DNA of 42,071 bases from Alphaproteobacteria bacterium (GTDB taxonomy: Bacteria > Pseudomonadota > Alphaproteobacteria > Sphingomonadales > Sphingomonadaceae), in the NCBI GenBank assembly GCA_006226465.1, contig SBHJ01000256.1:1-42071 (forward strand). The letters are read 5' to 3'. Each line of letters opens with the position of its first letter. Positions within the stretch are counted from its first letter, which is position 1. Shown here in pieces: positions 1 through 30,974 of this stretch. The translations under genes were made by a program, and so were the position numbers. The notes below the pieces were generated by a model. That model was not told the origin of the DNA. It did no database searches and saw only the letters and a program-made list of their open reading frames with translations.

Positions 1-415
1 TCCCGTCGACGGGAACCTCGACCTCTTTGTTCGTCGCAAGCTTTGAGAAGCAGAAGCGATCCTTCACGGACAACGAGCTGCCATAGATCAGGCGAATATC
101 GTCGATCGTCGCCGGCTGGACCGTCTTCGGCGGGATCGCTAGAGCGTCTCCGCCGCGCTCAAACTTCTGATCGCGCAGAACGCCGAGCGGGAAAGCCTCG
201 ATCACATAGTCTTGGCTGCCGTCATCGCGCGCCTGAATCTGGAAGTTCTCAATGATGGCAACCAGTACCGCATTCTCATTGTCGGCGATCTTCAAATAAG
301 AGCCGACGCGGAGAGACTCCTCGGCAATTCTGAAATTCTCGAGGTCATCGACGACGATCTTGACCTTGTTAGGAAAGACCGCAACGACTTCAGCTTTTAC
401 ATCGCTCATACTCAT
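1..415 (-). CDS. herA: HerA-like ATPase, N-terminal part only (runs off the left edge of the window)
   Basis: Hand translation of the complement from ATG at 415 (alternative ATG at 409) is open to position 1: MSMSDVKAEVVAVFPNKVKIVVDDLENFRIAEESLRVGSYLKIADNENAVLVAIIENFQIQ...SSLSVKDRFCFSKLATNKEVEVPVDG. This resembles the HAS-barrel N-terminus of HerA/DUF87 ATPases just before Walker A. It starts 3 nt after the stop of the upstream nuclease gene. Absent from the ORF track because it has no stop inside the window. Confidence 0.75.
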   Translation of the reverse strand, partial: MSMSDVKAEVVAVFPNKVKIVVDDLENFRIAEESLRVGSYLKIADNENAVLVAIIENFQIQARDDGSQDYVIEAFPLGVLRDQKFERGGDALAIPPKTVQPATIDDIRLIYGSSLSVKDRFCFSKLATNKEVEVPVDG

Positions 416-418
416 CCC

Positions 419-1636
419 CTAAATGATCTTGTCGATGTCTTCGTACTTGGGAATCTGGAAGCGGGTATGGCTGATGGCACCATCACCAAAGTCTTCAACC
501 GGCTCACTACGATAGAATTCGTAAATCTCGCGAGAGCGCTGGAACGACAGAAAGGTCTGCCGCGCCTCCGCCAGATCGCAGAATAGCCTCAGGGCCGGGC
601 CGGCGTCGGCGGATGCCGGTCGGGAGATTGATCCGGCGTCGAACTGGGCACCCTTGAAATCGTAGCCGTCAACAAAGCGAACGTCTTCATTGTGCAGCTC
701 CTGCTTGAGGCCGGCAAGTTCGGTATCGTCGATGCCGACGAGCAGCACGTAGGGCGAGAAGGGCTTTGAATCTCGCTTGGAGAGCTTGGAATATTTCCGG
801 GAGATGGTCTTCAGAAGCGTTTTGACCGCGTTCCGGCTGTAGGTGTCGCCAGCCGGATGGATGATGAAAAGCCGGTCGGCCGGGGAGATATTGACGCCCG
901 CTGCGAAAAACTCGTTGCGCAGCGCGCGATAATATTTGGCCGTACCAAGCTTGGCGATGAACCACTCATCAAAGAGATAAGAAGATGTATCTATTCGCTT
1001 TATGAACGCTGTCCTCGTTGTGACGCGCAGAGCCTCGTCAGGTTCGATCGCCAGTTCTTTGATCACCCGCAGGGCACTGTTATAGTAGAAAAATTCGGCC
1101 GCGAACGGTGAGCAGCCGAACTGTTTGACAAGACTCTCGATGATCGCCTGAAATTGATCCTCGAATTTCACCGCATTCACGTCGATCGAAAGACGTTTCA
1201 AGAAGTCCTCAAGCTCAGCGTCACTGACACCAAGCTCTTCATGCTTTTTGACTGTCTTATCTTTTGATGCGGTTGTGAGAAAATTGGTCTTGAGGAAGGC
1301 GATATCGAACGGAAGCACCAGCTTGTCCTGCCCGGACGCAAAATGACCGCTGAGCTGGTACTGGATCGGTGGCCGGCCGGCGGTGAGGCCCGCCTTGTAG
1401 TGCGCGAGCATGAACATGATAGCGGGCTTTATAACCGACTGATTATACTCGGATTTCTCATAGTATTTGCACTGGACGGCAGTCGTTTCCGTAGCGGTGT
1501 GGACGTCGATATCCTCGATGCATTCGATCGCCACCGAGTCATTCGCACCGGCTAGCCCCAGGATGCTGAGGATCGAGCGATCGAATTGATAGAAATAGCC
1601 AGCAATCGTCGAAACTGCGCTCCGATCGGCCACCAT
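419..1636 (-). CDS. DUF4297/Cap4-type dsDNA nuclease domain protein (PD-(D/E)xK candidate)
   Basis: N-terminus STIAGYFYQFDRSIL...VAIECIEDIDVHTATETTAVQCKYYEKSEY matches the E...ED-(I/V)-D...QxKY pattern of DUF4297-like nucleases; directly upstream of a HerA-like gene. Confidence 0.65.
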   Translation of the reverse strand: MVADRSAVSTIAGYFYQFDRSILSILGLAGANDSVAIECIEDIDVHTATETTAVQCKYYEKSEYNQSVIKPAIMFMLAHYKAGLTAGRPPIQYQLSGHFASGQDKLVLPFDIAFLKTNFLTTASKDKTVKKHEELGVSDAELEDFLKRLSIDVNAVKFEDQFQAIIESLVKQFGCSPFAAEFFYYNSALRVIKELAIEPDEALRVTTRTAFIKRIDTSSYLFDEWFIAKLGTAKYYRALRNEFFAAGVNISPADRLFIIHPAGDTYSRNAVKTLLKTISRKYSKLSKRDSKPFSPYVLLVGIDDTELAGLKQELHNEDVRFVDGYDFKGAQFDAGSISRPASADAGPALRLFCDLAEARQTFLSFQRSREIYEFYRSEPVEDFGDGAISHTRFQIPKYEDIDKII

Positions 1637-1757
1637 TACCCCCTGCGGTGATCTGCTGCGCGGACATCGCGTCTGTATTCGCTCGTCATCGGAATCCCTA
1701 TTGTTCGGCCTCCCCCTTTTCTCGATGATCGCATATCGGCGATTGATAACTTCATCG

Positions 1758-4379
1758 TCACAACGTTATCCGATTTCCAGCGACATGTCTGAAGGCGCGA
1801 TCACGGCAGGTGAGAAGGACGACCTGCATGCGGCTTGCGGCCTCCGACAGAATTTCGATCATCGTGTCGAGACGGGCATCGTCGGAGTAGACCAGCGGAT
1901 CGTCCAGGATCAGCGACACGGGCTTCCCCTGCTCCAACAGCATATCGGCGAATGCAATCCGTGTGAGGACGGCAAGCTGCTCCTGCGTGCCGCGCGACAG
2001 GCTCGCGCAGCTTTCGTCCACGCCCGCACGGATCACGCTTTCGAGACCGAGATCCTCCGAAAAGTTGAGCTCGCATCCAGGCAGGAGGCGCTCGATATGA
2101 CGCTTCGCCCGCGCCGCCACCGGACCGACAAATTTGGCCGACGTCTCGTTGCGAGCGGCGTCGAGGGTGCTTCGCAGCACCTTCAGCGTTTCCGCTTCAT
2201 CGGTGATGCGCTCAAGAGCAAGATGAGCCGCCTCGACTTCCTCGAATGCGGCAGCTGTCCGATCGGCGAGGCCGAGTCCGCCCTCGCTCTCGATCGTCCC
2301 TTCAAGGCGCGCGATATCGGTCTCCAACCGCGTTCGGGTTTCCCCGGCCGTGCGCACTCTCGCATCGATCAATTCGATCTTGCGCGTGATCGCCGCGACG
2401 TCGTGCGCAGAGGCATCGCGGAGTGCGTCTTCAACCTTGACCGAAGCCTCGGCGGCTTGCTCGCGCGCCTTGGCCAGATCTTCCGTAAGCGTCGTCCACT
2501 CAGGTCGCCGCTCGATCGCGTCAAGTGCGCTTACGGCGTTGGCGACATCGCTCGAGGCCCTGGCTTCTGCCATCGCAAGGGGCGCTTCCTCCTGCTCGAC
2601 GCGACGCAGGGCCTCGATGGCGCTGTCCTGGGCCCCTTCGGCACGGGCTGCGGCGCTATCGGCCGTCTCCATCGCCTTCGTGAGCGCCACGATATCGGGA
2701 AGTTCCCCCTCCCCTATGGCCTCTTCCGCGCCGAGCTCGGCGACGAACAGCTTGAGCGCGGCGGATCCAGCGGCAAGCTGAAGGGCATCGTCGGCGGGCG
2801 TGGCCGCTTCGATGCGCGCCTCTAGGGTTCGCAGATCCGCTGCGGCATCCCTGGCGATCTCGTTGCGGGCTCTCGCGGCAGCAAGATCGGCGACGCCGAG
2901 ATCGTCAAGTGCCGATTTCCGCTTACGAAGCGCAGCCGCCAAGACCTCCGCGGCGCTGGCGGCAGACGTCGGCGGCGTGATCTGAAGCTCGGCGGCGCCG
3001 AGGCGGATATGGACCTCGCGATCAAGAGTGCGCGCGCCGAGTGCCATTGGCTCGCCATCAATCGTGATGCCGTCCGCTGTGCCGGACAACGCAATCCGGG
3101 TCGCGCCAGCGTTCACCACCGCCTGCGCTTCCGCAACGGCGCGATCATGCGCTTCAAGCGACGTCAGCACTTTCGGGGCGATCGCAGTGTCGGTGAGCAC
3201 CTTCGCGGTGCTGTGTTGTTCCTCAAGCTTCAGGAGGTCGGCATGTCGCCGGCACGCGGCCTGGACCGCTGCACCGCGACGGCATTGTCGAATCCGCTCT
3301 TCGCCTTCAGCTAGGGCCCTTTGCGCGGCCTGGCGGTCCGTGCGCGCGGAATCGAGCGCGGTGCGCGCATCCACCACCTTCTGCTTCGCCGCCGACAATG
3401 CGTCGGCAACCCCGAGACGCTGTTCGCTTGCCTGGGTCAGCGCGGCGTCCGCATTCGTCCGGGCCTGCGTCGCGTCATCGTGGCGCTGCCGAAGGTCCGC
3501 GAGCGCCTTCACCTTGCCGTTGGCCGCTTCCTGCTCGGCACGACGGGTGGTAAGGATCTGGGCCGCCGCCCGTGCGATATCGAGCGAAGCAACCAGGTCG
3601 CTACGCGTTTGCGAGTCCGTGTTGTCCGCCATCTCGCGCTGGATAATCTTCAAGCGGGCGCGAGCCGCCTCGACATCTGAGAAGCTGCGCTCCAGCGTGG
3701 CCAATCGATCCGCGGCTTCGCGCGCCGTGGTCTCGGCGGCCTCAAGCCGCTCACGCGCGTCGGTTTGCCGACCGCGCTTCTGGCCGGTCGGTGTCCAGTA
3801 GAGCTCATATTGAGCCTCGACCCGATCCCTGACGCGGCGATAGGCAGCGCCGCCCATGATCGACCCGACTTCCGCCTCGAGCGTGGAGGTGACGCTGTCG
3901 CGCACGATTTGGCCGGGCGCGGTCACGGACAAGGCCTCGGTCTGGGCGACCCAAAGCAAACCGAGTGCGCCATAAGTCGCGACATCACCGCCCCGGCTAG
4001 TGTCGCGGACCGAACCGAGCAGCGCATTCAAGCGCGCCTCGGCCTCCTCCCCTTGCGCACAGCCCTGAGGTCCGGAGACCTCGACCGATGCACTGCGCAA
4101 GAAATGCTTGGTCACCGACCAAGGCGCGCCATCCACATCGAAAGCGACCTCGATCTCAGGACCGACCGCATCGCCATGTGGAGCGAAGGATTGGGCCAGC
4201 TGATTGCGCGTGTTGAAGCGGACGAAGAAGGCCGCGCGCAAGGCCTCGAGAAGCGTCGACTTGCCCGTCTCATTCGGCTCGATGACGACGTTGAGGCCGT
4301 CGGTAAGGCCCTCGATCACGACGGGTGCGCGGAATTTCCGGAAATTCTTCACCGCGATGCGACGAATGACGAGGCTCAT
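1758..4379 (-). CDS. SMC-like AAA ATPase (Rad50/SbcC/YhaN-like)
   Basis: Walker A EPNETGKSTLLEALRAAFF; long Ala/Arg/Glu-rich coiled coil; signature LSRGTQEQLAVLTRIAFADML; Walker B SLILDDPLVYSDD. The start overlaps the stop of the Mre11-like gene (ATGA). Confidence 0.9.
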   Translation of the reverse strand: MSLVIRRIAVKNFRKFRAPVVIEGLTDGLNVVIEPNETGKSTLLEALRAAFFVRFNTRNQLAQSFAPHGDAVGPEIEVAFDVDGAPWSVTKHFLRSASVEVSGPQGCAQGEEAEARLNALLGSVRDTSRGGDVATYGALGLLWVAQTEALSVTAPGQIVRDSVTSTLEAEVGSIMGGAAYRRVRDRVEAQYELYWTPTGQKRGRQTDARERLEAAETTAREAADRLATLERSFSDVEAARARLKIIQREMADNTDSQTRSDLVASLDIARAAAQILTTRRAEQEAANGKVKALADLRQRHDDATQARTNADAALTQASEQRLGVADALSAAKQKVVDARTALDSARTDRQAAQRALAEGEERIRQCRRGAAVQAACRRHADLLKLEEQHSTAKVLTDTAIAPKVLTSLEAHDRAVAEAQAVVNAGATRIALSGTADGITIDGEPMALGARTLDREVHIRLGAAELQITPPTSAASAAEVLAAALRKRKSALDDLGVADLAAARARNEIARDAAADLRTLEARIEAATPADDALQLAAGSAALKLFVAELGAEEAIGEGELPDIVALTKAMETADSAAARAEGAQDSAIEALRRVEQEEAPLAMAEARASSDVANAVSALDAIERRPEWTTLTEDLAKAREQAAEASVKVEDALRDASAHDVAAITRKIELIDARVRTAGETRTRLETDIARLEGTIESEGGLGLADRTAAAFEEVEAAHLALERITDEAETLKVLRSTLDAARNETSAKFVGPVAARAKRHIERLLPGCELNFSEDLGLESVIRAGVDESCASLSRGTQEQLAVLTRIAFADMLLEQGKPVSLILDDPLVYSDDARLDTMIEILSEAASRMQVVLLTCRDRAFRHVAGNRITL

Positions 4380-5485
4380 GCCGGCTCCTCCCGGCTATAT
4401 TCGACGAAGAGGCGTTCAAGGGCACGCTTCGCGACCGCAGCATCCTCGCCGCCGCCTTCGATCCTCGTATTAAGCATCGCCGCTGCCGCCCCAAGCATGC
4501 CCTCGACGGCCAGGTTCGCAATGTCTTCTTCGCTCGGCCGACCAACCAGATCATCCGCGCGCACGTCGAGATACCGCAGCTGATGACCGATATCGTTTTC
4601 GAGCCGACCCAGCATGCCAATCCGGTCGCCGAGACTGGTGATACCAGCCAGCGTAAGGCGCAAAAGCGTTGTGGGCGCGTCGATCGCGCCGAGGAGCAAT
4701 TCGCACTCGGCATCGAACGCTGCCTGGTCACTGACCATCCACTCCCGCAAAAGCCATTGGAAGCGGCCTGTGCGGATCGGGGTGACGGACGGCTCCGCAC
4801 CAGTCGACAGCTCGACGACGAGGGCTTGTCCGGGATCGTCGCGCTGGAAGCGGTCGACTTCGGGCGTGCCGGCATACCAGGTGCGACCATCGACGCGGAG
4901 TGCCCCATGCCAGTCACCGAGCGCAAGATAGTCGAGGTTCGATCGGCGTGCGCGATCGGGCGCGATCTGGTTCTTCGTTTCGCCTTGCGAGCCAAAGTCG
5001 CGGATCGAACCGTGTGCGAGGCCGATACGCAGGGTCGCGCCGGGCGTCTCCATGGAGTCGAAACGGGCGGTGGGATCTTCGAGATTGTGGCGATGCTCAA
5101 GCGGCGCGGGCAACAGCCAGACGCCGGGGCTCATCTCGAACGGCTCGGGCGTCGACAAGATGACGATGTTCTCGCTCGCCCTTTGACGGACCCGATCCCA
5201 TAGTCCGCCATTGCGCGCGAAATCATGGTTGCCTGGAAGCAGCCACCAGCGACAGCTTTGACGGCTCATCCGGGATATAGCTTGGACGATCGTTCGGTCC
5301 TCCGGACCTTCGGTGTCGAAGATGTCGCCGGCAACGACGACGTGCTGTGCCCCGTGTTCGACCGCTGTGCGCCCAAGTGTGTCGATTGCCTCGAACCGCG
5401 CCTCGCTAAGGCCGGCCCGGACTTCGGGCTCGAAGCGCCCATACGGTTTGCCGAGTTGCCAGTCAGCAGAATGGATGAATTTCAA
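4376..5485 (-). CDS. Metallophosphoesterase, Mre11/SbcD-like
   Basis: MKFIHSADWQLGKP...VVVAGDIFDTEGPEDRTI...WWLLPGNHDFAR...LGDWHGALRVDGRTWYAGTPE: calcineurin-like phosphoesterase motifs DxH, GD, GNHD, GDxH. Preceded by GGGGGAGG as an RBS. Confidence 0.92.
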   Translation of the reverse strand: MKFIHSADWQLGKPYGRFEPEVRAGLSEARFEAIDTLGRTAVEHGAQHVVVAGDIFDTEGPEDRTIVQAISRMSRQSCRWWLLPGNHDFARNGGLWDRVRQRASENIVILSTPEPFEMSPGVWLLPAPLEHRHNLEDPTARFDSMETPGATLRIGLAHGSIRDFGSQGETKNQIAPDRARRSNLDYLALGDWHGALRVDGRTWYAGTPEVDRFQRDDPGQALVVELSTGAEPSVTPIRTGRFQWLLREWMVSDQAAFDAECELLLGAIDAPTTLLRLTLAGITSLGDRIGMLGRLENDIGHQLRYLDVRADDLVGRPSEEDIANLAVEGMLGAAAAMLNTRIEGGGEDAAVAKRALERLFVEYSREEPA

Positions 5486-5646: not shown

Positions 5647-6171
5647 TCAGGCGCTCGCGCGGCCCGGCCAAGCAAGAGCCGCCTGCAGCACGACGTGTGC
5701 TTCCTTTATGAGCGTCACGTCGCGCTCCCACTGGCCATCCGGCCCACCGCGGAATTTCTCGCCATGGAGGTAGCTATTGCGCACTCGGCAAACGCCTTGG
5801 ACAATTAACTCGTGCACGTTCGTTAGGGGCACGGGTATTTCAGGTGCCCATACAAGGTCGTTCATCAGGCGACGCGGCGGCTCGCTAATCAGCGTCTTAG
5901 CGATGCCCTTGTCGACGACTGCGGCGAAGAATTCTGGCCCAAGATCGCGGGCGAACGCATCCCAATCGGCCTCGGCAATCTCCTTGTTTAGCCGCATCCG
6001 GCCGGATCGCTTCAAAGCGTATTCGGCATCGCCGAATTGTCTCGCGAAAGCCCCTGCGACTACGTAGGGATTGTCCAACGAAATCCTCCAAGCCTGATCC
6101 GTCCTCCGGCTAAATGTTGCATGCCGGTATACGCTGTAAACGACTTTCTGAATGACCTCTCTGGGATGCAT
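5647..6171 (-). CDS. Hypothetical protein with a HEPN-like RNxxxH motif
   Basis: 174 aa; C-terminal motif HELIVQGVCRVRNSYLHGEKF contains R-N-S-Y-L-H (Rx4H) typical of HEPN RNases and related proteins. Confidence 0.6.
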   Translation of the reverse strand: MHPREVIQKVVYSVYRHATFSRRTDQAWRISLDNPYVVAGAFARQFGDAEYALKRSGRMRLNKEIAEADWDAFARDLGPEFFAAVVDKGIAKTLISEPPRRLMNDLVWAPEIPVPLTNVHELIVQGVCRVRNSYLHGEKFRGGPDGQWERDVTLIKEAHVVLQAALAWPGRASA

Positions 6172-6345: not shown

Positions 6346-8076
6346 TTATAGCCCCAACCCCCGCCCGCGCCCTAACGACCAGTCCACGCCGCCGTCGCCA
6401 CGCATGATGCCGGAGATGTGCTTGCCCATCTGCCGGTCGAGCGAGGGGGACCAGGGCACGAGTTGGAATCCGAGCCCATTGTCGATCATGGCGAAGCGAC
6501 CCGAGGCAAGGTTCAGACGCTGCCGCACCGTGCCCATGACGTAATCGCCGGTTTGTGACGGCGTATGCGGCAGGCCGATTTCCGTCGACAGTTTCTCGGC
6601 AGCGGCATCCAGTTCCCGCCTCCGGAGTGTATCGAGCAGATTGCGGGCGAAGATGATCCGCCGCCCCTGCCGCCGCGCCAGGCCCTCGTCGGCGAGATGC
6701 TCCGCCCGTGCTTCCATCGCGACCCGAACCTCCGCCCCGAAACCGCCCCCGAGGTCACGTCCATCGCCCGACAGGTTCCGCCGATCCAACCAGGTGGCAC
6801 CCGGCGCGCGGACCTGTGCGTTCAGGTCGAAGTCCGAGCGCACGGCCAGCGCCATCCGCTGCCGGCCCTTGCGATCCTTGAAGTGCCGTAGTTCGACAAT
6901 CGCACCGGGCCTGCAATCGCCGGTCGCATCGACGTCGAGAAGCTGAATATGGTGCGTGCGTCCGTCGATGCCGTCGACGATCGCATAGGCCCTGCCGGTC
7001 AGCTCGTCGTGCAACCCACGCTCGACCAGCCTGCCCATTACGTTCTGTCCGGGTTCGTGTTCGAGTGCATAGCTGGCTGAGCCCCGGTCTATGCCCCGCT
7101 CAGTCATGGCGCGGTGCATCCGCATGATGATGTCACCACGCGCCTGCAATTCGCGCAGCGCGGTTTCGGCATCGCCACGCATGGTCCACTGACCGGGCGC
7201 CACCTCGCTGGCGAGGCCGAGCCCTTCGAGTTTGCGCAAGCGGCCGATGCGCAGCGCATGATCCGGACCGGGCCGCGCTCCCCGTTCAGGCGCAGTGTCG
7301 ATGATGCCGTTGCGGTCGCGCTCTCGCGCCAATCTGTAATCCAGATCGGTCCAGCGTTCGGCATTGACCTGCCGCTCCAGCGACTGGTGGATTTCGAGAT
7401 CGGTGCGCAGGCCGAGTTCCTGCGTGACGATCTCGCGAGCCTGTGCCCGCATTCCCTCGCGGATGTAGTCGCGCGCAATCACGAGATCACGGCCGTCCTC
7501 GCCGACGCCGCGCACGATGACATGGATATGGGGGTTGTCGGTGTTCCAGTGCTCGACCCCGCGCCAGTCGAGACGGGTGCCGAGATCCCGTTCCATCTGC
7601 GTCATCAGTTCCCGCGTAAAGGTCTTGAGGTCGCGCATTTGCGCGGCGTCTTCGGGCGAGACGATAAAGCGGAAATGGTGCCGGTCATCCTCGCAGCGCG
7701 CGGTAAACTCGCTGCGGTCGAATTCGTCGCCCTCGGTCCCGAATAGCATGCCACGCTCGCCATCACGGGTGACGCCGTCGCGTTGCAGGTAATCGAGATG
7801 TGCACCAAGCGACGAGCGGCCTCCATGCCGGACCACGCGCGCCTTGATTACGACGTTGCGAGCCCGGCCACCGAGACGATGGGCGGCGCGAATGCTCGCC
7901 GCACGCCCGCGTCCGAAGGTCGAAAACCCCACACCGGAAGATCGTGCGCGTCCCGCGCCAAGGCCTCCGGCTCGCTGGGCGGCGGCAAGAGCCTGCGCGA
8001 TGGCGGGCCGTGTGCGCTGCCCGCCTCGCGTGCGGATGCGGCCTGGCCGGACACGGAAGTCATCCTCGCCTTTCAT
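6346..8076 (-). CDS. Relaxase/mobilization nuclease (VirD2/RlxS-like, DUF3363)
   Basis: MKGEDDFRVRPGRIRTRGGQRTRPAIAQALAAAQRAGG...RGVEHWNTDNPHIHVIVRG (HxH relaxase motif). ORF opens at 8103; start 8076 preferred by similarity to the usual N-terminus. Confidence 0.9.
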   Translation of the reverse strand: MKGEDDFRVRPGRIRTRGGQRTRPAIAQALAAAQRAGGLGAGRARSSGVGFSTFGRGRAASIRAAHRLGGRARNVVIKARVVRHGGRSSLGAHLDYLQRDGVTRDGERGMLFGTEGDEFDRSEFTARCEDDRHHFRFIVSPEDAAQMRDLKTFTRELMTQMERDLGTRLDWRGVEHWNTDNPHIHVIVRGVGEDGRDLVIARDYIREGMRAQAREIVTQELGLRTDLEIHQSLERQVNAERWTDLDYRLARERDRNGIIDTAPERGARPGPDHALRIGRLRKLEGLGLASEVAPGQWTMRGDAETALRELQARGDIIMRMHRAMTERGIDRGSASYALEHEPGQNVMGRLVERGLHDELTGRAYAIVDGIDGRTHHIQLLDVDATGDCRPGAIVELRHFKDRKGRQRMALAVRSDFDLNAQVRAPGATWLDRRNLSGDGRDLGGGFGAEVRVAMEARAEHLADEGLARRQGRRIIFARNLLDTLRRRELDAAAEKLSTEIGLPHTPSQTGDYVMGTVRQRLNLASGRFAMIDNGLGFQLVPWSPSLDRQMGKHISGIMRGDGGVDWSLGRGRGLGL

Positions 8077-8344
8077 GGCTGGCAGTCCCGTGATGTGCGG
8101 CAAAGCCGCTTAAACGGTGGGAAATGGCAAAAGGCACACATCGCGGACATTGCCGCGCACCTCGCGGCGGGCCGCCGCAAAGCCTTGTGAAACAAGGCCA
8201 CGACCGGCTGCAGAGGGCTTGGCACATCGCGGCTTTTATCTTGCCATCGATTTTTCCTCGTGAATTCAATAGACTTGCCACTGCTCCGCCGCCCTCCATC
8301 GGGGCCGAGAGCACGCCATGGGGCGCTGTAGGTGGCAACAGCCG

Positions 8345-10343: not shown

Positions 10344-11258
10344 TCATGACCGGCTATCCACAGCGTCAATGCCCATTCGGCGCCTGGCGGCGTCGAGTGG
10401 ATGCTCCGGGATGGGCGCGAAGTTCAGCCGATCACGGCCAAGTGCATGTTCGAGCTTGAGGACGTAACCGGGTAGAGGCTGGCGGGCGACGATCGCGCGT
10501 AACTCGAAAGCGAAGCGGCGCAGCGGCGAAAGCACGCCGGACTTCATGTGAAGGTGGGGAACGTCGAAGCTCCAACCGCCTTCCTGCCTCCCGCCATGCT
10601 TGCGCACGATGCGGTAAAGCCAGCGCTCCAATCCGCCAGTCAGATCGAAATAGGCCCGGTCTATCGTCAGCACGAGCGCGCGGTCGAGCACACCAGCATA
10701 GAACCAGTCCGGCAGGATCAACTCGATCCCGAGCGCCCGGCCCTGGCCGTCCGCTAGTTCACGCCATTCGTTGATCCACGAGAAGCGATGACGGCGACGC
10801 TGATGCTCCTGCCGGATCGACGTTGCGACAGTGGTGGATTGCAGCCGGTCGAGCGCAGCCTTGAGCCGTTCGTAGCTCGCCTTGCCGGTGCCGCGCCGGG
10901 TGAACGCCAATATCTCGTGCGGCGTCGTTATCATGAGACGCGAAGTGGGCCGGCCGGCATCGCGCGCCTCGATGAGCTGGCTTGCCGCCCAGATCAGCAC
11001 GTCGGCATCCCAAATGGTCGCCATGCCATGTTCTGGCACGGCCTCGACCGATATGCGGGTCTTGCCCATACTGAAATCGATCGGCGCTATGCGCCTGCTC
11101 TTGGCCAGACTGAAAAATGGCCAGGCCATCAGATCCTGCGCATCGCGCGGCGTGAGATTGCCGGGAACCGAACGGAACAGTTCCAGCTGCGTCCGTTCGG
11201 CGCCGGAGCGGGTGGAAGAAGACTGTGCAACGCCCATGGGTCTCAGCGTCGCACGCAA
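10344..11258 (-). CDS. repA: Replication initiator protein RepA-like
   Basis: QLELFRSVPGNLTPRDAQDLMAWPFFSLAKSRRIAPIDFSMGKTRISVEAVPEHGMATIWDADVLIWAASQL...GGLERWLYRIVRKHGG. Confidence 0.9.
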   Translation of the reverse strand: MRATLRPMGVAQSSSTRSGAERTQLELFRSVPGNLTPRDAQDLMAWPFFSLAKSRRIAPIDFSMGKTRISVEAVPEHGMATIWDADVLIWAASQLIEARDAGRPTSRLMITTPHEILAFTRRGTGKASYERLKAALDRLQSTTVATSIRQEHQRRRHRFSWINEWRELADGQGRALGIELILPDWFYAGVLDRALVLTIDRAYFDLTGGLERWLYRIVRKHGGRQEGGWSFDVPHLHMKSGVLSPLRRFAFELRAIVARQPLPGYVLKLEHALGRDRLNFAPIPEHPLDAARRRMGIDAVDSRS

Positions 11259-20131: not shown

Positions 20132-21805
<1,674 letters not shown>

Positions 21806-21921
21806 TACGGCAGCTGGCCCCGGCGCTCGCGCCGGGGCCCTTCACACTCTTTCTGGTTCCAATCGGCATGCGGGGAGCTGGGCAATTCTCCCTGCCTGCT
21901 CCGTGCATGGAGGATTGAAAC

Positions 21922-23016
21922 ATGAAGATTGCCCAGATTGCTCCGATCGCCGAAAGCGTACCGCCGCGCCTTTATGGAGGCACGGAAAGGATTGTTTCCT
22001 ACTTGACCGAAGAACTGGTCCGACAGGGCCATGATGTAACGCTATTCGCCAGCGGGGACTCAACGACCGCAGCGGAACTGGTTCCGATTACAGAGACCGC
22101 GCTCCGCCTCAATCCGTTGATTGTCGATGCCATTCCTCATCACATGATCCTGCTGGATGAGGTGGCGCGGCGGGCCCACGAGTTCGACGTTCTCCACTTC
22201 CATATCGACCTGCTGCATGCGCCGTTGACCCGCAGTTTTGCGAACAAGACGCTGACGACCCTTCACGGTCGTTTGGATCTTCCCGATCTTCAGCCCTTCT
22301 ACCGCCGCTTCTCGGATATGCCGTTGGTGTCCATCTCGGACCACCAGCGTCAACCGATGCCGCCCGTCAACTGGGCGGGCACCGTCTACCACGGGCTTCC
22401 GCGCGATCTCTTGCCGGCCACACTGGAAGCAAAGGGAGACTATCTTGCCTTTCTCGGTCGCATTTCTCCTGAAAAGCGCCCCGACAGGGCAATTGAGATC
22501 GCTGCTCGTTCCGGCATGCCGCTCAGGATCGCCGCCAAGGTGGACAAGGCCGATCAGACATACTGGGATGAAATGATCGCTCCGATGATCGCGGCCAATC
22601 CCAATGTCGAATTCATCGGGGAGATCGACGAACATCAGAAGGCGGAATTTCTGGGCAATGCCCGTGCACTTCTGTTTCCAATCGACTGGCCCGAACCTTT
22701 TGGGCTGGTGATGATCGAGGCGATGGCATGCGGTACGCCCGTCATCGCCTTTCGTTGCGGTTCCGTGCCGGAAGTGATCGACGAAGGGGTGTCAGGTTAC
22801 ATTGTCACCGATGTGGACGAGGCGGTCCAGGCCGTGCAGCGGCTTGACGCGCTGGACCGTGCGGCCGTGCGAACGGCATTTGAAGCACGTTTCTCGGTCG
22901 AACGGATGGCCCAAGACTATGTGAAAATCTACAAGTCACTGCACAGAGGATATCTGGATGGCCTGGATGTCGACAGGTTAGTCGAAGCAGATCCGACACT
23001 CGAAAGTGAAGCCTGA
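21922..23016 (+). CDS. Glycosyltransferase family 4 protein
   Basis: MKIAQIAPIAESVPPRLYGGTERIVSYLTEELVRQGHDVTLFASGDS...FLGRISPEKRPDRAIEIA...WPEPFGLVMIEAMACGTPVIAFRCGSVPEVIDEGVSGYI. Confidence 0.93.
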   Translation: MKIAQIAPIAESVPPRLYGGTERIVSYLTEELVRQGHDVTLFASGDSTTAAELVPITETALRLNPLIVDAIPHHMILLDEVARRAHEFDVLHFHIDLLHAPLTRSFANKTLTTLHGRLDLPDLQPFYRRFSDMPLVSISDHQRQPMPPVNWAGTVYHGLPRDLLPATLEAKGDYLAFLGRISPEKRPDRAIEIAARSGMPLRIAAKVDKADQTYWDEMIAPMIAANPNVEFIGEIDEHQKAEFLGNARALLFPIDWPEPFGLVMIEAMACGTPVIAFRCGSVPEVIDEGVSGYIVTDVDEAVQAVQRLDALDRAAVRTAFEARFSVERMAQDYVKIYKSLHRGYLDGLDVDRLVEADPTLESEA

Positions 23017-23036
23017 TTCAGGCGAGGGGAAGCGAG

Positions 23037-25256
23037 ATGGATATGGCCGTAGCTGGTTCAGATTCTGCCCGGGCGACAGAGCCCAATGGCATCGCGAAAG
23101 CACCAACTCAGTTCTTCGTTCCGGCAACTGCCTCGTTGCATGAACGAAGACCGCGTACGCTCAAGCACGGCGATACGTTCGCGGTGTTCGATCACAGTGG
23201 GGATGCCATCAGCGGCCATGGAAGTCCGGAAGGGCTGTATCACCGGGATACACGCCATCTCTCGCATTTCTATCTGACACTCATGGGCGGGGTGCGGCCG
23301 ATTCTTCTCAGTTCCGCATTGAGAGACGACAATGCGACGTTGACCTGTGATCTAACGAATCCGGATATCCACGATGAGGGCGGCGAATGCGTCTTGCGGA
23401 ATGACCTCGTCCACATCCGCAGGACGCGCTTCCTCTGGAACGGCGTCGCATATGAACGGCTGTCGCTCTTCAACTACGACGATCAGCCGCATCGATTGTC
23501 AGTGGAGATCGGTTACGCCGCTGATTTCGCCGATCTGTTCGAGGTGCGCGGCACGGTTCGCCCAAAGCGCGGAGAGCGATGCTCTCCGGTGTTCGGTGAT
23601 GACCATGTGGTGCTGAGCTATATTGGCCGCGACAATCTGACGCGTCATACCACTCTGAGGTTTTCACCGCAGCCACAGGTTATCAGCCACGATCAGGCTG
23701 TCTTCTCATTCGAATTGGGGGCAGGCGAGCGGCAATCCATTCTTATTGAGGTGCATTGCGGGGAAGCGGATCTGAACCAGGATCTGCGTACCTCTTTCAT
23801 ACGCTCGTTCCGGGCTGCAAGGAGGGCGTTGCGCGCATCTTCCTCGCGGGCTGCCGCAGTCGCATCATCCAATGAGATTTTCAATCAGGCGCTTCGCCGC
23901 TGTGTGGCGGACATCTACATGCTTGTCACAGACACGGAGCATGGCCCCTATCCATACGCCGGCATTCCCTGGTTCAGCACGATCTTCGGGCGCGACGCGC
24001 TTATTACAGCGTTGGAAACGCTGTGGATCGATCCGGAAATCGCTCGCGGTGTCCTGTCCTATCTCGCGGCGAAACAGGCAAAGGAATTCGATGCGGCCGC
24101 CGATGCAGAACCTGGCAAGATCCTCCATGAGGTTCGCCGCGGTGAAATGGCGGAATTGGGAGAAGTGCCGTTCCGCCACTACTACGGCAGCATCGATTCC
24201 ACCCCCCTCTTTGTCATCCTGGCCGGCGCATACCTTCAGCGTACAGATGACGTCGAATTCGCCCGAGCTATCTGGCCGAATGTCGAAGCCGCCCTGCGTT
24301 GGATCCAGGACCATGGCGACCGGGATGGCGACGGCTATGTCGAATATGGCCGACACACGCAGGAAGGGCTGGCCAACCAGGGCTGGAAAGACAGTTACGA
24401 CTCTGTTTTCCATGCAGACGGTCGCCTGGCAGCTGGACCGATCGCGCTCGCTGAAGTGCAAGCCTATGTCTATGGAGCGTGGGAAGCCGGGGCCGCGATG
24501 CTTGATCGACTGGGCAACGCCAAGGAGGCCCAGTCACTGAGAATGCGGGCCGAGGCGTTACGCGAGCGGTTCGACCGCGACTTCTATGACGAGGATCTCC
24601 GTACATACGTTCTTGCACTGGATGGAGAGAAACGGCCCTGCCGGGTTCGTTCGTCCAATGCGGGACACGTTCTCTTTACCGGGCTTGCCAAGCCCGAGCG
24701 CGCCGCTGCCGTCGTCGAGACATTGATGTCGCCTTCCAGTTTTTCCGGCTGGGGCATTCGTACGATTGCCACCACCGAAGCCCGATACAATCCCATGAGT
24801 TATCATAATGGTTCGATCTGGCCACATGATAACGCGTTGATTGCGGCGGGCTTCTCCCGTTATGGATTCCGGCTGGAGGCTTCGATGATTTTCGAGGCCT
24901 TGATGGGCGCTTCAACTTATGTCGACCTCCGCCGTCTTCCGGAGTTGTTCTGCGGCTTCCCCCGTCGTCCGGTACAGGGTCCGACCTTTTATCCGGTGGC
25001 CTGCATTCCGCAGGCATGGTCCGCGGCCGCGCCGCTCTTCCTGATTCAATCGAGTCTCGGCCTCAGTTTCGATGCGAAGGCCGAACACATCATTTTCAGC
25101 GAACCTGTTTTGCCGAACTTTCTGGATGAACTCCACATTCGCCACGTTCGCGCCGGCGATGGACGTGCCGACATCATGTTGAGGCGCTCGGGCGAGAAGG
25201 TTCTGGTCGATGTTCTGGATCGTACGGGCGACGTGCGAGTTCTGTCGATGGTATGA
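23037..25256 (+). CDS. Amylo-alpha-1,6-glucosidase / glycogen-debranching-type protein
   Basis: LKHGDTFAVFDHSGDAISGHGSPEGLYHRDTRHLSHFYLTL...GIPWFSTIFGRDALITALETLWIDPEIARGVLSYLA...NPMSYHNGSIWPHDNALIAAG. Confidence 0.92.
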   Translation: MDMAVAGSDSARATEPNGIAKAPTQFFVPATASLHERRPRTLKHGDTFAVFDHSGDAISGHGSPEGLYHRDTRHLSHFYLTLMGGVRPILLSSALRDDNATLTCDLTNPDIHDEGGECVLRNDLVHIRRTRFLWNGVAYERLSLFNYDDQPHRLSVEIGYAADFADLFEVRGTVRPKRGERCSPVFGDDHVVLSYIGRDNLTRHTTLRFSPQPQVISHDQAVFSFELGAGERQSILIEVHCGEADLNQDLRTSFIRSFRAARRALRASSSRAAAVASSNEIFNQALRRCVADIYMLVTDTEHGPYPYAGIPWFSTIFGRDALITALETLWIDPEIARGVLSYLAAKQAKEFDAAADAEPGKILHEVRRGEMAELGEVPFRHYYGSIDSTPLFVILAGAYLQRTDDVEFARAIWPNVEAALRWIQDHGDRDGDGYVEYGRHTQEGLANQGWKDSYDSVFHADGRLAAGPIALAEVQAYVYGAWEAGAAMLDRLGNAKEAQSLRMRAEALRERFDRDFYDEDLRTYVLALDGEKRPCRVRSSNAGHVLFTGLAKPERAAAVVETLMSPSSFSGWGIRTIATTEARYNPMSYHNGSIWPHDNALIAAGFSRYGFRLEASMIFEALMGASTYVDLRRLPELFCGFPRRPVQGPTFYPVACIPQAWSAAAPLFLIQSSLGLSFDAKAEHIIFSEPVLPNFLDELHIRHVRAGDGRADIMLRRSGEKVLVDVLDRTGDVRVLSMV

Positions 25257-25268
25257 TGAGGAAGAGCC

Positions 25269-26684
25269 ATGGAACGACTGATCGTCATTTCTAGTCTCGT
25301 TCATGCCTTGGCTGAAGGCGAAGCCGAAGCGCATGGAGGTGGCCTGCCGCAGCCAATCGTATCGGCAATGGCAGGTCGGAATGCGCTGTGGTTTGGCTGG
25401 TCCGGCAAAGTCACCGAACGCTTTACCGGTTCGTTGAAACTCGAATGCCGCGACGGGATGCGGATGGCGAGTGTCGATCTGGACGCCGCCGATATTGATG
25501 AGTTCGTGAATGGGTATGCCAACCGGACATTGTGGCCGATGCTCCACGGCCGTACCGATCTTGCGGAATTCGAACGTCATTTTACGGACGGCTATGAGCG
25601 GGGCAATTCCCGTTTGGCCCGGTCAATTATGCCCTTAATCGAGGAGGACCACCTTGTCTGGGTGCACGATTATCCCTTGTTCCTGGTGGCAAATGAACTG
25701 CGCGCGTTGGGGTGCGACAACAGGATCGGCTTCTTCCTGCACACGCCCTGGCCGCACCGTTCGATACTGACCGCTCTGCCCGACCATGCCAGGATGGTTC
25801 AAGCCTTGCTGTGCTATGACGTGATCGGCTTTCAAACTGAAGATTACCGACAGGCCTTTCTCGATTATCTCGAAAGCGAACTCGGCATCTCTCCGACTGA
25901 GGATGGCCTGATCGAATTCGAAGGCCGCTGCATCAGGGTCCTCGCTCTGCCCGTAGGTATTGATGCAGCCGAATATCGAGATTTGCTGGCCAGCCCCGAG
26001 GCGCGGGCCAGCCATCAGGCTTCCATGGAAAGCGCGAATGGCAGGAGCATGATCGCCGGAGTCGATCGGCTGGACTTTTCAAAAGGGCTACCGCAGCGTT
26101 TTGCCGGTTATGACCGTTTCCTCTCCGCGCGGCCCGATATGCAGGAGCAGATTTTCCTGCTCCAGATCGCACCGCCCGCGCGCAATGACATTCCGTGCTA
26201 CAGTCATATCCGCGAAGAACTCGAAGCTCTTTCAGGCCGCATCAACGGCAAACATGCGACCTCGAACTGGGTGCCGATCCGCTATGTGAACCGTGAGCAC
26301 AGCAGGCAGCAACTTGCGGGAATCTTCCGGGCGGCCCGGATCGGGCTCGTGACTCCACTTCAGGACGGCATGAACCTTGTGGCGAAGGAGTTCGTCGCGG
26401 CACAGGATCCTGAAAATCCCGGAGTCCTTATTCTGTCGAAATTCACCGGAGCGGCGGCTCAGCTGAAAGAGGCGCTCACCATCAATCCATTCAGCGCTGA
26501 CGAATTAGCGGAAGCTATCGAACAGGCGCTCAAGATGCCGGTCGCAGAGCGCAAGCGTCGCTGGCGCTCGCTATACGACATCGTGAACCGGGAAGATGCG
26601 GCTTGGTGGTGTGACAGTTTTCTCCAGCGACTGCGCGGCTCATCCGAAATCGAAAGGCCGGTGCTCTTGTCGCAAGCGGCGTAG
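25269..26684 (+). CDS. otsA: Alpha,alpha-trehalose-phosphate synthase
   Basis: NRTLWPMLHGR...VWVHDYPLFLVANELRALGCDNRIGFFLHTPWPHRSIL...GVDRLDFSKGLPQRF...TPLQDGMNLVAKEFVAAQDPENPGVLILSKFTGAAAQL. Confidence 0.95.
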   Translation: MERLIVISSLVHALAEGEAEAHGGGLPQPIVSAMAGRNALWFGWSGKVTERFTGSLKLECRDGMRMASVDLDAADIDEFVNGYANRTLWPMLHGRTDLAEFERHFTDGYERGNSRLARSIMPLIEEDHLVWVHDYPLFLVANELRALGCDNRIGFFLHTPWPHRSILTALPDHARMVQALLCYDVIGFQTEDYRQAFLDYLESELGISPTEDGLIEFEGRCIRVLALPVGIDAAEYRDLLASPEARASHQASMESANGRSMIAGVDRLDFSKGLPQRFAGYDRFLSARPDMQEQIFLLQIAPPARNDIPCYSHIREELEALSGRINGKHATSNWVPIRYVNREHSRQQLAGIFRAARIGLVTPLQDGMNLVAKEFVAAQDPENPGVLILSKFTGAAAQLKEALTINPFSADELAEAIEQALKMPVAERKRRWRSLYDIVNREDAAWWCDSFLQRLRGSSEIERPVLLSQAA

Positions 26685-27100
26685 GAGCAATTCAGGCGTT
26701 CTTGTAGGGCTTGTCCAAAAGCCATGTCTTCACGCCAGATCGGGCGCGGAGCTGAAAAGCCTGCCTTCGCGGGTCATAGAAGCGCGCCTCGTCCGACAGG
26801 ATGAAGAGATTTGCGAGAGCAGAACGCCGATGCAGGAGGCACTGATTCAGATCAGTGCGCCGTCTACCACCTGATGGAAGAAGAGCTTCATGGATGGAGA
26901 GCTCTTACATCTTGTCTCTCTCAGCGCATGGGCTGCCAGCGCTCGCTTGTGGCGGTCCCGTAACTCCGATCGGAAAGCCGGATCGGCTGCCTGCCTTACG
27001 CAAATTAGCGTCTGCCAATTCGAGGCGTCGGCATGATCTTCATGCCGCTGAAAATGAAGGCCGGCCCAGTCTGAAAATTGCCTTAGGGAAGGGAAGCACG

Positions 27101-28072
27101 ATGGATCAGAATAAGAAGTGCCGCAGAATACGGGTACTGAATCGGGTCTCGGTCAGAGGTCTCTATGCTGCGTTGCTCCTTGGCGTATCCGTCAGCGCAA
27201 GCGCTCAGGAAAGCGACAAGGAATCTACAGCCCCGCCGAGCCAAGCGGAGGCGACAGAAGCAGTTGGAGCATCTGTTGGTGAAAAAGCAGGTGATGAAGT
27301 CACCAAGAAGCGCGCCGAACTTCTTTCCGAAGCTGTGGAGGCGCTCCAGCAGACCAAACTTGCGATCGAGCATCTCGACAAGCAAGACGGAAAGAAAGCG
27401 CTGGATGCCCTCGCGACAGCTACGGGCAGGCTCGACATAATCTTGGCTCGGGATCCGGGCCTTGCGCTGGCGCCCGTTGATGTCGTGACCAGCCGCACAG
27501 ACATCATCGCGACAGTCGCCGACGTCAGGAAAATCCGGGACAGAATTGAAGCGCTCGTGAAGGAGGGGCGTCTGCAGGACGCGCGAGTGTTGATGGAAAC
27601 CTTCGCCAGCGAGATTCGGATCCACACCACCAATATTCCCCTCGCAACATATCCTGCCGCCATCAGAGGGGCTGCTCGTCTCATCGATCAAGGCAAGTTG
27701 GCTGAGGCTAAATCCGCCCTCAACACTGCTTTATCGACCCTGGTGATCGAGGAAGAGGTTCTGCCGCTTCCGCTTTTGCGTGCTCAGGCAATGCTGAGTG
27801 CCGCAGAGAAACAGCTGCAAGACGGCTCTGCGAAGGCGGCGGACGAAGAGTCAGAGAAATCGCAAATCGACCCCACCATCTTCATCGACAATGCCTCGTA
27901 TCAGGTGGAGCTCGCGAGGGCTCTGACATACGGCAATGACAGCCTTTATGAGAAGCTTGCTCGGGACATAGAGGATTTGAAGAAGAAGGTCTCCGCCAAG
28001 AACGAATCGAGGGATCTGTTTGAATCAATAGATAAGCAGATCGATAATCTCGAAACGACAGTTAATGATTGA
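27101..28072 (+). CDS. YfdX family protein (exported)
   Basis: Signal peptide RGLYAALLLGVSVSASAQES; KKRAELLSEAVEALQQTKLAIEHLDKQDGKKALDALATATGRLDIILARDPGLALAPVDVVTSRTDII. ORF opens at 26855; internal ATG at 27101 preferred (purine-rich RBS, signal peptide). Confidence 0.85.
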   Translation: MDQNKKCRRIRVLNRVSVRGLYAALLLGVSVSASAQESDKESTAPPSQAEATEAVGASVGEKAGDEVTKKRAELLSEAVEALQQTKLAIEHLDKQDGKKALDALATATGRLDIILARDPGLALAPVDVVTSRTDIIATVADVRKIRDRIEALVKEGRLQDARVLMETFASEIRIHTTNIPLATYPAAIRGAARLIDQGKLAEAKSALNTALSTLVIEEEVLPLPLLRAQAMLSAAEKQLQDGSAKAADEESEKSQIDPTIFIDNASYQVELARALTYGNDSLYEKLARDIEDLKKKVSAKNESRDLFESIDKQIDNLETTVND

Positions 28073-28088
28073 CCAGAAGGAGGCGGAA

Positions 28089-28358
28089 TTGTCCGACAAA
28101 CCCTTCCTTGAAACTGTTCCCAGAAAGCTTCCCTGGATACTGGCAGCTTTGCTGGCGATCGCTCTCCTCGTTTGGTTCATTGGCCCGTTTGGCCAGGAAG
28201 AGGAAAAGGAGGTAACCTATGTTCCTGGCGCTAAGGATATCAGCGGTGGGGAATTGATAGTAACCGAACCTGATCCCCTTGCGGTCCCGGTGGAGCTGCC
28301 CAAGACGCCAATGACGCCTGTTCCACCTGAAAAGGGAGAGGCAGCTTCAGAACAATAA
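28089..28358 (+). CDS. Small single-pass membrane protein
   Basis: LPWILAALLAIALLVWFIGPFG transmembrane segment. AGGAGG precedes a TTG start at 28089; the ATG of the listed ORF (28065) lies inside yfdX. Confidence 0.65.
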   Translation: MSDKPFLETVPRKLPWILAALLAIALLVWFIGPFGQEEEKEVTYVPGAKDISGGELIVTEPDPLAVPVELPKTPMTPVPPEKGEAASEQ

Positions 28359-28683
28359 TCGCGCCTCTCACTCTGCCGTTGCCCGATCCGCACTTTAGCC
28401 TCGCGCTGACCTTTCACATACTGGGTTGCCCGATATCGTGGTGGAGGCGCGGCTCTGGATGGCCTGGTGCAAGCGACTTTCGCGGGTTCCATCAAGACCA
28501 CATAGACGTTCAAAACCTGCGTCGAATGGCGCGCGTATGAGCAGTGTCGCATTATGCGCACAGGGCGGGAGTTACGCGGCGCGCGGACACGCTGCATTTC
28601 GCCGAATTTTCGGGTTCACCAGGAATTGAAACAGGTCGTCCTTCACCTAAATCAGTGCTGAATAACAGGTTGGAGGACCCACA

Positions 28684-29553
28684 GTGAACACGATGAAGAC
28701 ATTCATTCTGCTCGCTGCCTTGACCGCGCTTTTCATGGGCCTCGGCTACATGATCGGCGGCTCCAGCGGCGCATTGATCGCGCTCGTACTGGCGGCGGCG
28801 ATGAACTTTTTCACATACTGGAATGCGGACAAAATCGTATTGTCCATGCACAGGGCTCGCGAAGTGAACGCCACCAGCGCCCCTGAATTCTATGGAATGG
28901 TTCGTGAGCTCGCGATCCGGGCCGGTTTGCCGGTTCCCAAAGTCTATATTATCGATAGCCCTCATCCGAACGCCTTTGCGACCGGACGCGATCCCGGCCA
29001 CGCTGCGGTTGCAGCAACGACGGGTCTCTTGCGCATGCTTTCGCACGAAGAGATCGCAGCCGTGATGGCGCATGAGTTAGGTCACATCCGCAATCGCGAT
29101 ACGCTGATTATGACGATGGTAGCTACGATCGCCGGCGCCATCTCCATGATCGCTAATTTTGGCTTCTTCTTCAGCAATGACAACAGGTCCAATCCCTTGG
29201 CGCTGCTCGCAGCAGTCGTGGTCGCACCATTTGCGGCGATGATTGTGCAGATGGCTATAAGCCGTACTCGGGAATTTGGTGCTGACCGTGCCGGTGCGGA
29301 GATTTGCGGCAATCCTGCGGCCCTGGCTTCGGCTCTGAGGAAAATCGCCTCCCCGGCCCAGAGGATTCCTAACCCGGTTTCCGAACGCAATCCCGCAGCG
29401 GCACAACTCTACATCGTGCCAACGCACGTTTCAGAGCTGTTCTCGACGCATCCGGCGACCGAAAGGCGAATTGCTGCTTTGGAGGCTATGCGGGGCCAAC
29501 AAGCAAACCGAGTGAGGCGCCCCAATGCGATTGGGCGGCTTGGACGATGCTGA
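28684..29553 (+). CDS. htpX: Membrane zinc metalloprotease HtpX
   Basis: [26 protein letters not shown]...[37 protein letters not shown]...[11 protein letters not shown]...[14 protein letters not shown]. Confidence 0.96.
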
Positions 29554-29628: not shown

Positions 29629-30849
29629 CTAGGGGTGCTTTGGTTTTTCCATCTTTGCTAGCAACCCAGCAATATGTTCGTTCCAACAGCGCAGCGCTTC
29701 GCGCTTTTCATCTTTCCAGTCGTGACGCTGATAAATCCCTGCGACGCCAGCCCGTGATCCGCTAACGTGGTTCAGAACTGCTTCCGTGACTTCAAAGCGC
29801 ACACCGAGTCTTTGAAAGCCCGTTGCCAATGTGCGCCGAAGGTCATGTAGGCGCCACGGCGGCATAGGATCACCGCCATCTTTCTCCAAAAGATGGTCCA
29901 GCTTCAACTTTCCCTTATGATAGCCGGTGAACGGACCGCCGGTAGACGTTGGGAAAACCTTGCCGCGTCGGGGCCAATTTTTCCCTCCTGCGACACCATC
30001 CAGAACGGCTACCGCGAGATCGTTGAGGGGAACGCTGTTTGGCTCTCCATTTTTCGTCCTTTCCCCCCTTAGCGTCCACATGCGCTCGGCTCTATCCAGC
30101 TCTTCCCAGGTAAGCCCCGCCACTTCCTCGCGACGTTGGCCCGTCGTGATGAGCAGGCGCACGATCGGCCCGAAGCAGTGATGCGTTTTAGGGGCTTGCT
30201 TCCATATCCGGGGAAGCTCCTCATCGGACAACCAGCGGTCCCTAGGCTTGACAGGAGGCGGTGTCTCCATGCCCTCCATCGGGCTACGTTCAATATCACC
30301 TCTGCTAACAGCCCAGCGGAACATGCGTCTCAAAACCGCGAAGACGTTGCGCTTGTTGGCAACTTGCTCAGCGGGCATTCGATCGAACACCGCCACGATG
30401 TCCGCTCGCGTAATGTGAGGCAGGGGCTTGTTGCTCAAGACCGGCTTTGCATGAAGCCGGAACGAACGCTTCACGAGAGTTATCCATCCCTTGCCCGTAC
30501 ATGATTGTGCGAACCGGTCGGCATAGTTGTCGAAGGCGAGATCGACGGCTTCCCGGCGTCGTTGTTTCTCCGCTTCGGTAGGGTCGGTGCCTTGCGCAAT
30601 GAGCAAACTGAGCCGTTCAGCTTCAGCTCTTGCCGTAGTGGGTGTCCAAGGAGAACCATGTCCGCCGATCGTATACCGGCGTGTCTTGGATTCTCGCCCA
30701 CCCATTCGATATTGCAGGATGTAGGATGCCGCACCGGATGAAGTGACTTTCATCCCGAAGCCTTTGATATCCTCGTCCCATAAGAAGCCGGCAACGCCAG
30801 CCGAACGCATCGCATCGACCGCGCGCTTACCTATTCTTCCTGTAGCCAT
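29629..30849 (-). CDS. Tyrosine recombinase/integrase (P4-like, DUF4102 N-terminus)
   Basis: MATGRIGKRAVDAMRSAGVAGFLWDEDIKGFGMKVTSSGAASYILQYR...LLITTGQRREEVAGLTWEELD...LHDLRRTLATGFQRLGV...HVSGSRAGVAGIYQRH. ORF opens at 30891. Confidence 0.94.
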   Translation of the reverse strand: MATGRIGKRAVDAMRSAGVAGFLWDEDIKGFGMKVTSSGAASYILQYRMGGRESKTRRYTIGGHGSPWTPTTARAEAERLSLLIAQGTDPTEAEKQRRREAVDLAFDNYADRFAQSCTGKGWITLVKRSFRLHAKPVLSNKPLPHITRADIVAVFDRMPAEQVANKRNVFAVLRRMFRWAVSRGDIERSPMEGMETPPPVKPRDRWLSDEELPRIWKQAPKTHHCFGPIVRLLITTGQRREEVAGLTWEELDRAERMWTLRGERTKNGEPNSVPLNDLAVAVLDGVAGGKNWPRRGKVFPTSTGGPFTGYHKGKLKLDHLLEKDGGDPMPPWRLHDLRRTLATGFQRLGVRFEVTEAVLNHVSGSRAGVAGIYQRHDWKDEKREALRCWNEHIAGLLAKMEKPKHP

Positions 30850-30974
30850 TTTCGAGCCTCCTGCAGGTGCTTTCCAGCAATCACCCAGCAATCACCGAAG
30901 CGGAAAAAGCCGCCAAGAGACTGCTAGTGTAGCGCAGTAAGGCTTAGAAAAAAGGTCGAAAAATCAACGCTATG

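Follow-up and report, generated by a model that had tools for sequence, protein, structure and literature searches.

A four-gene Mre11-Rad50-DUF4297-HerA operon in a mobile element of an alphaproteobacterium

Introduction

What is an Mre11-Rad50-like gene pair doing directly upstream of a nuclease-translocase pair that already forms a defence system by itself? The question is raised by a stretch of 42,071 nucleotides (hereafter the window) from a member of the Alphaproteobacteria (contig SBHJ01000256.1, assembly GCA_006226465.1), which is one whole contig (G000:C118) of a draft genome that is 68% complete. At its left end, the listing of open reading frames (ORFs) gives four genes, all on the minus strand, for an Mre11-like protein, a Rad50-like protein, a DUF4297 nuclease and the ATPase HerA (Table 1).

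A homologous DUF4297-HerA pair forms a complex of about 1 MDa that is active and toxic by itself, and kills infected cells through the destruction of all DNA (PMC11291478; PMC12198126). The trigger of the system has been reported as unknown and the complex as constitutively active (PMC11291478), which, together with its toxicity, leaves room for a licensing factor. For SIR2-HerA, nuclease activation is given as unclear in the literature. Mre11-Rad50 binds free, hairpin or blocked DNA ends (PMC10586767), and in archaea Mre11, Rad50 and HerA co-immunoprecipitate and are encoded together (PMC2288612). We propose, with a probability of about one in two, that the quartet in the window is a mobile defence cassette, in which the Mre11-Rad50-like pair (hereafter MR) would sense or process DNA ends and license DUF4297-HerA to destroy DNA.

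Results and discussion

Identity of the DUF4297-HerA half

The first-pass annotation of the window had described four minus-strand genes, with ATGA coupling between the first two and a 3-nt gap between the last two. The ORF coordinates bear this out: mre11 and rad50 share 4 nt (ATGA), and DUF4297 and HerA are 3 nt apart. In the longer gap between Rad50 and DUF4297 (121 nt), no terminator-like site was found.

The nuclease matches the NCBIfam model NF042945 with 490.1 bits, above the cut-off of 300, the PADLOC model PDLC02187 end to end with 474.6 bits, and the solved homologue 8XAV with 262 bits; the alignment with 8XAV places the published nuclease residues D40, Q53 and K55 at D42, Q55 and K57 (PMC11291478). 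HerA, for which the solved homologue is 8XAU, matches NF042944 and the PADLOC HerA model with its N-terminus, the partial protein alone scoring 195.6 bits against a cut-off of 850 that is a full-length threshold. The remainder of HerA lies on another contig of the genome (C273), where the corresponding piece is 97% identical to the HerA of the nearest relative and the frame is continuous across the join. The gene is broken where the two contigs overlap by 14 nt, at the self-complementary sequence TCCCGTCGACGGGA (positions 1-14 of the window and the end of C273). The absence of HerA Walker motifs to the left of position 1 would have spoken against a HerA in the quartet; the C273 part keeps the Walker A motif GSTGSGKSH. 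Another HerA, on contig C3 (33% identical), belongs to a HerA that most sampled genomes of the order possess, and was not counted as a second defence locus.

On these matches, DUF4297 and HerA are members of the already known DUF4297-HerA two-gene abortive-infection system. It had been suggested that a DUF4297-type nuclease occupies here the place of the archaeal NurA; the type of nuclease stands, while the novelty does not, since DUF4297-HerA is a named system of solved structure.

Identity of the MR half

The upstream pair is more distant from its classical counterparts. Mre11 scores 38.6 bits against Pfam Metallophos and 43.3 bits against the SbcD model TIGR00619, under the cut-off of 77.65; Rad50 scores 35.2 bits against Pfam AAA_23 and 42.7 bits against the Rad50 model PRK03918, under the equivalog cut-off of 700. 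PADLOC has no model for the pair, the best match of Mre11 having an E value of 0.029 and Rad50 giving general ATPase matches only, at 34 bits or less. Judged by sequence, MR is a distinct short subfamily that is common on alphaproteobacterial plasmids.

In Mre11, positions D8, D54, N86, H87, H158 and H193 are invariant, and Q10 and D191 stand where classical Mre11 has His (H10Q, H206D; H10 and H206 in Pyrococcus Mre11 numbering). In Rad50, the Walker A (N36-T42), signature (L794-Q801) and Walker B (L825-D827) segments are invariant or nearly so in an alignment of 15 relatives, and no CxxC zinc hook is present in the 873-aa sequence. Because of Q10 and D191 in Mre11 and the lack of CxxC in Rad50, end resection of the archaeal style is not to be assumed. 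An AlphaFold model of Mre11 (seven close rows) reached a pLDDT of 41 and was discarded.

These residues bear on another possible role of MR, that of an end processor or a brake, which would open protein-capped or hairpin ends for threading into HerA, or remove ends and so shield the host and the element. Blocked ends and hairpins have been described as substrates of Mre11-Rad50 (PMC10586767; PMC12977600), HerA-DUF4297 is a DNA translocase-nuclease, and Mre11 retains most of its catalytic and metal-ligand positions, with the Gln and Asp substitutes perhaps able to bind metal. Q10 and D191 nevertheless differ from the classical ligands, so that nuclease activity is only putative, and MR is also found with SIR2-HerA (see below), where end degradation is not an obvious need. 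We consider such a role quite unlikely.

The quartet moves as one unit

The same quartet, in the same order, is present at five other loci, in Erythrobacter, Pseudoxanthomonas, Gluconacetobacter, Komagataeibacter and Sphingobium, with 88-96% protein identity to the window for Rad50, Mre11 and DUF4297. Given that all four proteins have significant family matches and that the quartet is found in five other genomes as well, the arrangement is not a product of chance. At the DNA level, the four genes are 87-95% identical to those of the five other bacteria, which belong to three orders. Across the six hosts, DNA similarity on the Mre11 side ends 20-100 bp ahead of the gene, and on the other side it runs out no more than about 150 bp past HerA; the flanks are unrelated. 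The quartet travels as one unit between unrelated bacteria. Both the conserved co-occurrence that had been put forward as a check on the operon and the mobile setting claimed for it were found. A 174-aa ORF at 5647-6171 was dropped as a member of the cassette, being common to one other locus (L004) only.

Table 1. Coordinates of the cassette and of two mobility genes in the window
Feature	Position	Strand	Remarks
Mre11/SbcD-like metallophosphoesterase, 369 aa	4376..5485	-	TTG start after GGGGGAGG ribosome-binding-like site
Rad50/SbcC-like ABC ATPase, 873 aa	1758..4379	-	Walker A, signature LSRGTQEQ, Walker B LILDDPLVYSDD
Rad50/DUF4297 spacer, 121 nt	1637..1757	-	survives with the final Rad50 codons as a relic at some pair-less loci
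DUF4297 (Cap4-like) nuclease, 405 aa	419..1636	-	catalytic D42, Q55, K57 by alignment
HerA ATPase, N-terminal 138 aa	1..415	-	truncated at contig edge; residues 135-557 on G000:C273:19711-20982(-)
Relaxase (MobA/VirD2-like + DUF3363), upstream of cassette	6346..8103	-	Pfam DUF3363 295 bits, Relaxase 25.5 bits
Tyrosine integrase	29629..30891	-	Phage_integrase 49.2 bits

Recurrence in diverged lineages and exchange of the effector

The arrangement recurs well beyond these close copies. A plasmid of Burkholderia aenigmatica has the same four-gene order with a DUF4297 that is 37% identical, and its spacing is close (Mre11 and Rad50 overlapping by 4 nt, a gap of 35 nt, DUF4297 and HerA overlapping by 4 nt). 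Plasmids of Sphingobium, Polymorphobacter and Sphingomonas show the same order with a DUF4297-like gene of 27-28% identity and HerA; on the Sphingobium plasmid, PADLOC scores these at 124 bits (DUF4297) and 523 bits (HerA).

At two loci the effector is a different one. In L056 the order is Mre11-Rad50-SIR2-HerA, with SIR2 in the place of DUF4297, and in L054, from the same genus as the window, SIR2-HerA stands just upstream of Mre11-Rad50; PADLOC gives, for L056 and L054 respectively, 412 and 645 bits to SIR2 and 797 and 527 bits to HerA. On a Rad50 tree of 53 proteins, counting well supported branches only, the link with HerA was gained or lost at least five times.

As a control, eight SIR2-HerA loci were sampled in 136 genomes of the order to which the window belongs: none of them has MR nearby (0/8; flanks of about 6-10 kb on each side, shorter in L182, which lies at a contig end), and nearness to MR is therefore not general for defence HerA. 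Taken with the recurrences, this means that MR beside HerA is uncommon overall and recurrent in particular lineages. A metallophosphoesterase by SIR2-HerA on a Paracoccus plasmid (L117) was rejected as an Mre11 relic, having no similarity to Mre11.

Relics of rad50 and replacement MR pairs

Four loci from Rhodobacterales (L007, L008, L009 and L011) have a DUF4297 that is 83% and a HerA N-terminus that is 79-98% identical to those of the window, and lack the window-type MR. Directly before DUF4297, however, they retain the last 13 codons of a window-type rad50 together with the spacer (E 9e-5). In L014, where DUF4297 is 64% identical, about 28 window-type rad50 codons are kept in two pieces (E 7e-7 each). 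A rad50 stub in front of DUF4297 implies that the ancestor had Rad50 ahead of DUF4297, or that the module derived from such a locus. A possible stub in L013/L040 was too weak (E 0.03) and was not counted as evidence.

Loci of these lineages have long MR pairs of other subfamilies close by, with Mre11 34-42% identical between subfamilies. In L008, L009 and L011 such a pair lies 3.7 kb upstream of DUF4297, in L013 and L040-L042 it follows HerA at a distance of about 170-210 nt, and in L014 it adjoins HerA convergently; L007 and L010 are truncated by contig ends and not informative on a nearby MR. An exclusive tie of the long pairs to DUF4297 was ruled out, as they also occur near a Gabija-like pair on other plasmids, the name Gabija-like resting on AAA ATPase and UvrD annotation.

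Two further gene arrangements were observed at these loci. In L008, L009 and L011 (1611-7672), a dGTPase-like HD protein of 446 aa, named by reading, is encoded after the long Mre11-Rad50 and before DUF4297-HerA. In L040 (2419-8446), L041, L042 and L013, a Shango-like triplet, composed of a TerB protein (346 bits to SngA), an ATPase and a DEAD helicase, stands directly before DUF4297-HerA-MR.

Each half without the other

Several observations weigh against a necessary coupling of MR and DUF4297-HerA. DUF4297-HerA was found with neither window-type MR nor a relic in L015-L017, L044, L046, L048-L051, L057 and the prophage contigs L144-L146, which rules out that it always needs MR, and in E. coli a homologous pair is protective in the absence of MR (PMC11291478). 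Conversely, a contig from a viral collection (L131) has an MR that is 92% identical (Rad50) and no DUF4297-HerA, and chromosomal relatives of MR have ordinary, non-defence neighbours. Most SIR2-HerA loci are without MR, and in L008, L009 and L011 MR and DUF4297 are 3.7 kb apart, with the dGTPase-like gene in between. Finally, both halves sit in defence islands, where neighbours pile up. As regards L131, the rad50 stop is followed almost at once by 46 nt from the cassette's right edge (10619-10673), beside a recombinase-like frame, an apparent clean deletion of DUF4297-HerA as far as the sequence can tell.

The partners of MR are also varied. Members of its subfamily or its neighbours stand before OLD-like nucleases, AAA_13 proteins or nothing, and in L053 a TIR protein lies 430 bp away. 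The first-pass annotation had called the MR pair dedicated; a fixed tie to DUF4297 does not hold, given SIR2-HerA, OLD-like, AAA_13 or no partner at other loci and a DUF4297-HerA that is often found without MR. In L089 and L090, an OLD-like TOPRIM nuclease begins 15-42 nt after Rad50, co-directionally. A conserved trio Mre11-Rad50-AAA_13 occurs in two alphaproteobacteria (L030, 8004-13152, and L088), with PADLOC scores of 453 bits to PDC-S06 (L088) and 176 bits to AAA_13 (L030), and is a candidate three-gene defence system.

It might be argued from such data that an SbcCD-like MR and DUF4297-HerA are two independent defence modules, island neighbours whose joint movement reflects chance or a shared selective pressure. 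MR adjoins many defence genes (SIR2-HerA, OLD-like, PDC-S06, TIR and Gabija-like), each half is also found alone, and there is room for a promoter in the 121-nt gap. Yet the order is fixed and the spacing close (gap 35-121 nt) across large divergence, and the four genes are transferred as a block; in addition, a rad50 relic persists where a second MR family replaced the lost one, and the control SIR2-HerA loci lack MR (0/8). We regard independence as fairly doubtful. That the role of MR is to repair DNA, remove hairpins or maintain the conjugative element, with no relation to defence, appears most improbable: many relatives are indeed plasmid 'DNA repair exonuclease' genes that have no obvious defence gene immediately behind them, and chromosomal copies exist, but the common unit in the window and its five relatives is MR with DUF4297-HerA, not MR with transfer genes.

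The variety of partners can also be read in a broader sense. The mobile MR may be a portable DNA-end sensor plugged repeatedly into DUF4297-HerA, SIR2-HerA, OLD-like, AAA_13 candidate and Gabija-like effectors, and so define a modular class parallel to Lamassu in which a real Mre11 is kept; we advance this generalization tentatively, as a possibility somewhat short of probable.

Proposed mechanism

According to the reading of the quartet as a single defence cassette, the effector would be DUF4297 with HerA. By analogy with the solved homologue, these would form one large assembly, with the HerA ring acting as a pump that drives DNA into dimers of the DUF4297 nuclease. Phage and host DNA would both be destroyed, resulting in abortive defence. 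MR would be the front end, binding free, blocked or hairpin DNA ends that arise from the entry and replication of phages or plasmids; touching HerA as archaeal Mre11-Rad50 does, it could load or license the effector at those ends. The contact between MR and HerA, as well as the sensing or loading role of MR, is inferred from these analogies.

A version of DUF4297-HerA that has its own DNA-end-binding complex makes the trigger of the system testable, by comparing the four-gene with the two-gene form against the same phages. Should MR prove to be the trigger, a break-sensing complex of all domains of life would be linked to programmed DNA destruction, and defence finders would gain a new accessory module.

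The host element and its cargo

Besides the mobility genes of Table 1, the element carries replication and partition genes. On C273, the next gene after HerA is TraG/VirD4-like (named by sequence reading), and the cassette therefore lies between the coupling-protein and relaxase genes of a conjugative element. About 4 kb from HerA, the same element has a CBASS pair (G000:C273:12693-15557, L150), with 365 bits for the CD-NTase and 478 bits for an HNH-SAVED effector. By ORF reading, the window also contains, at 20186-29553, GroEL-like, glycosyltransferase, amylo-alpha-1,6-glucosidase, trehalose-phosphate synthase and HtpX-like genes, with the look of a stress-tolerance cargo. On a Geminicoccaceae plasmid (L021), a glycosyltransferase and a glucosidase gene with 69-70% DNA identity to those of the window stand directly upstream of that plasmid's own MR.

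Comparison with known systems

No catalogued system of this composition was found in PADLOC or in the literature searched, which covered Mre11 or SbcC/SbcD with HerA, Lamassu or defence and contained no description of MR with DUF4297-HerA; the search extended neither to bioRxiv nor to most subscription papers.

Several known systems resemble parts of the cassette. Like SbcCD and YhaO-YhaN, it has an overlapping Mre11-like/Rad50-like gene pair, which scores here under the SbcD and Rad50 cut-offs. With Lamassu (LmuA-LmuB-LmuC) it shares a Rad50/SMC-like protein by a Cap4-type nuclease and effectors that swap (nuclease, SIR2, others); in contrast to Lamassu, it has Mre11 and a HerA motor, and there is no match to LmuC. 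The DUF4297 protein scores 51.5 bits on LmuA against 475 on the DUF4297 model, and Rad50 31.5 bits on LmuB. SIR2-HerA (Nezha) is similar in having HerA with an upstream effector, and the same MR subfamily stands by SIR2-HerA in L054 and L056; the effector of the window, however, is the DUF4297 nuclease, SIR2 being found in these two relatives only.

The archaeal rad50-mre11-nurA-herA operon likewise encodes Mre11, Rad50 and HerA with a nuclease. The archaeal nuclease is NurA, whereas here it is DUF4297 (Cap4-like), with no other gene within the cassette; and while the archaeal operon belongs to core repair, the cassette is mobile and patchy, with a Rad50 that lacks the CxxC hook and an Mre11 with altered metal ligands.

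The closest relative is DUF4297-HerA itself (PDLC02187/PDLC02188; NF042945/NF042944; 8XAU-8XAY), whose catalytic residues and Walker A motif are kept here in two proteins that match their families over the full length. The known system consists of two genes and has no MR, whereas in the window two more genes lie directly upstream and are co-transferred.

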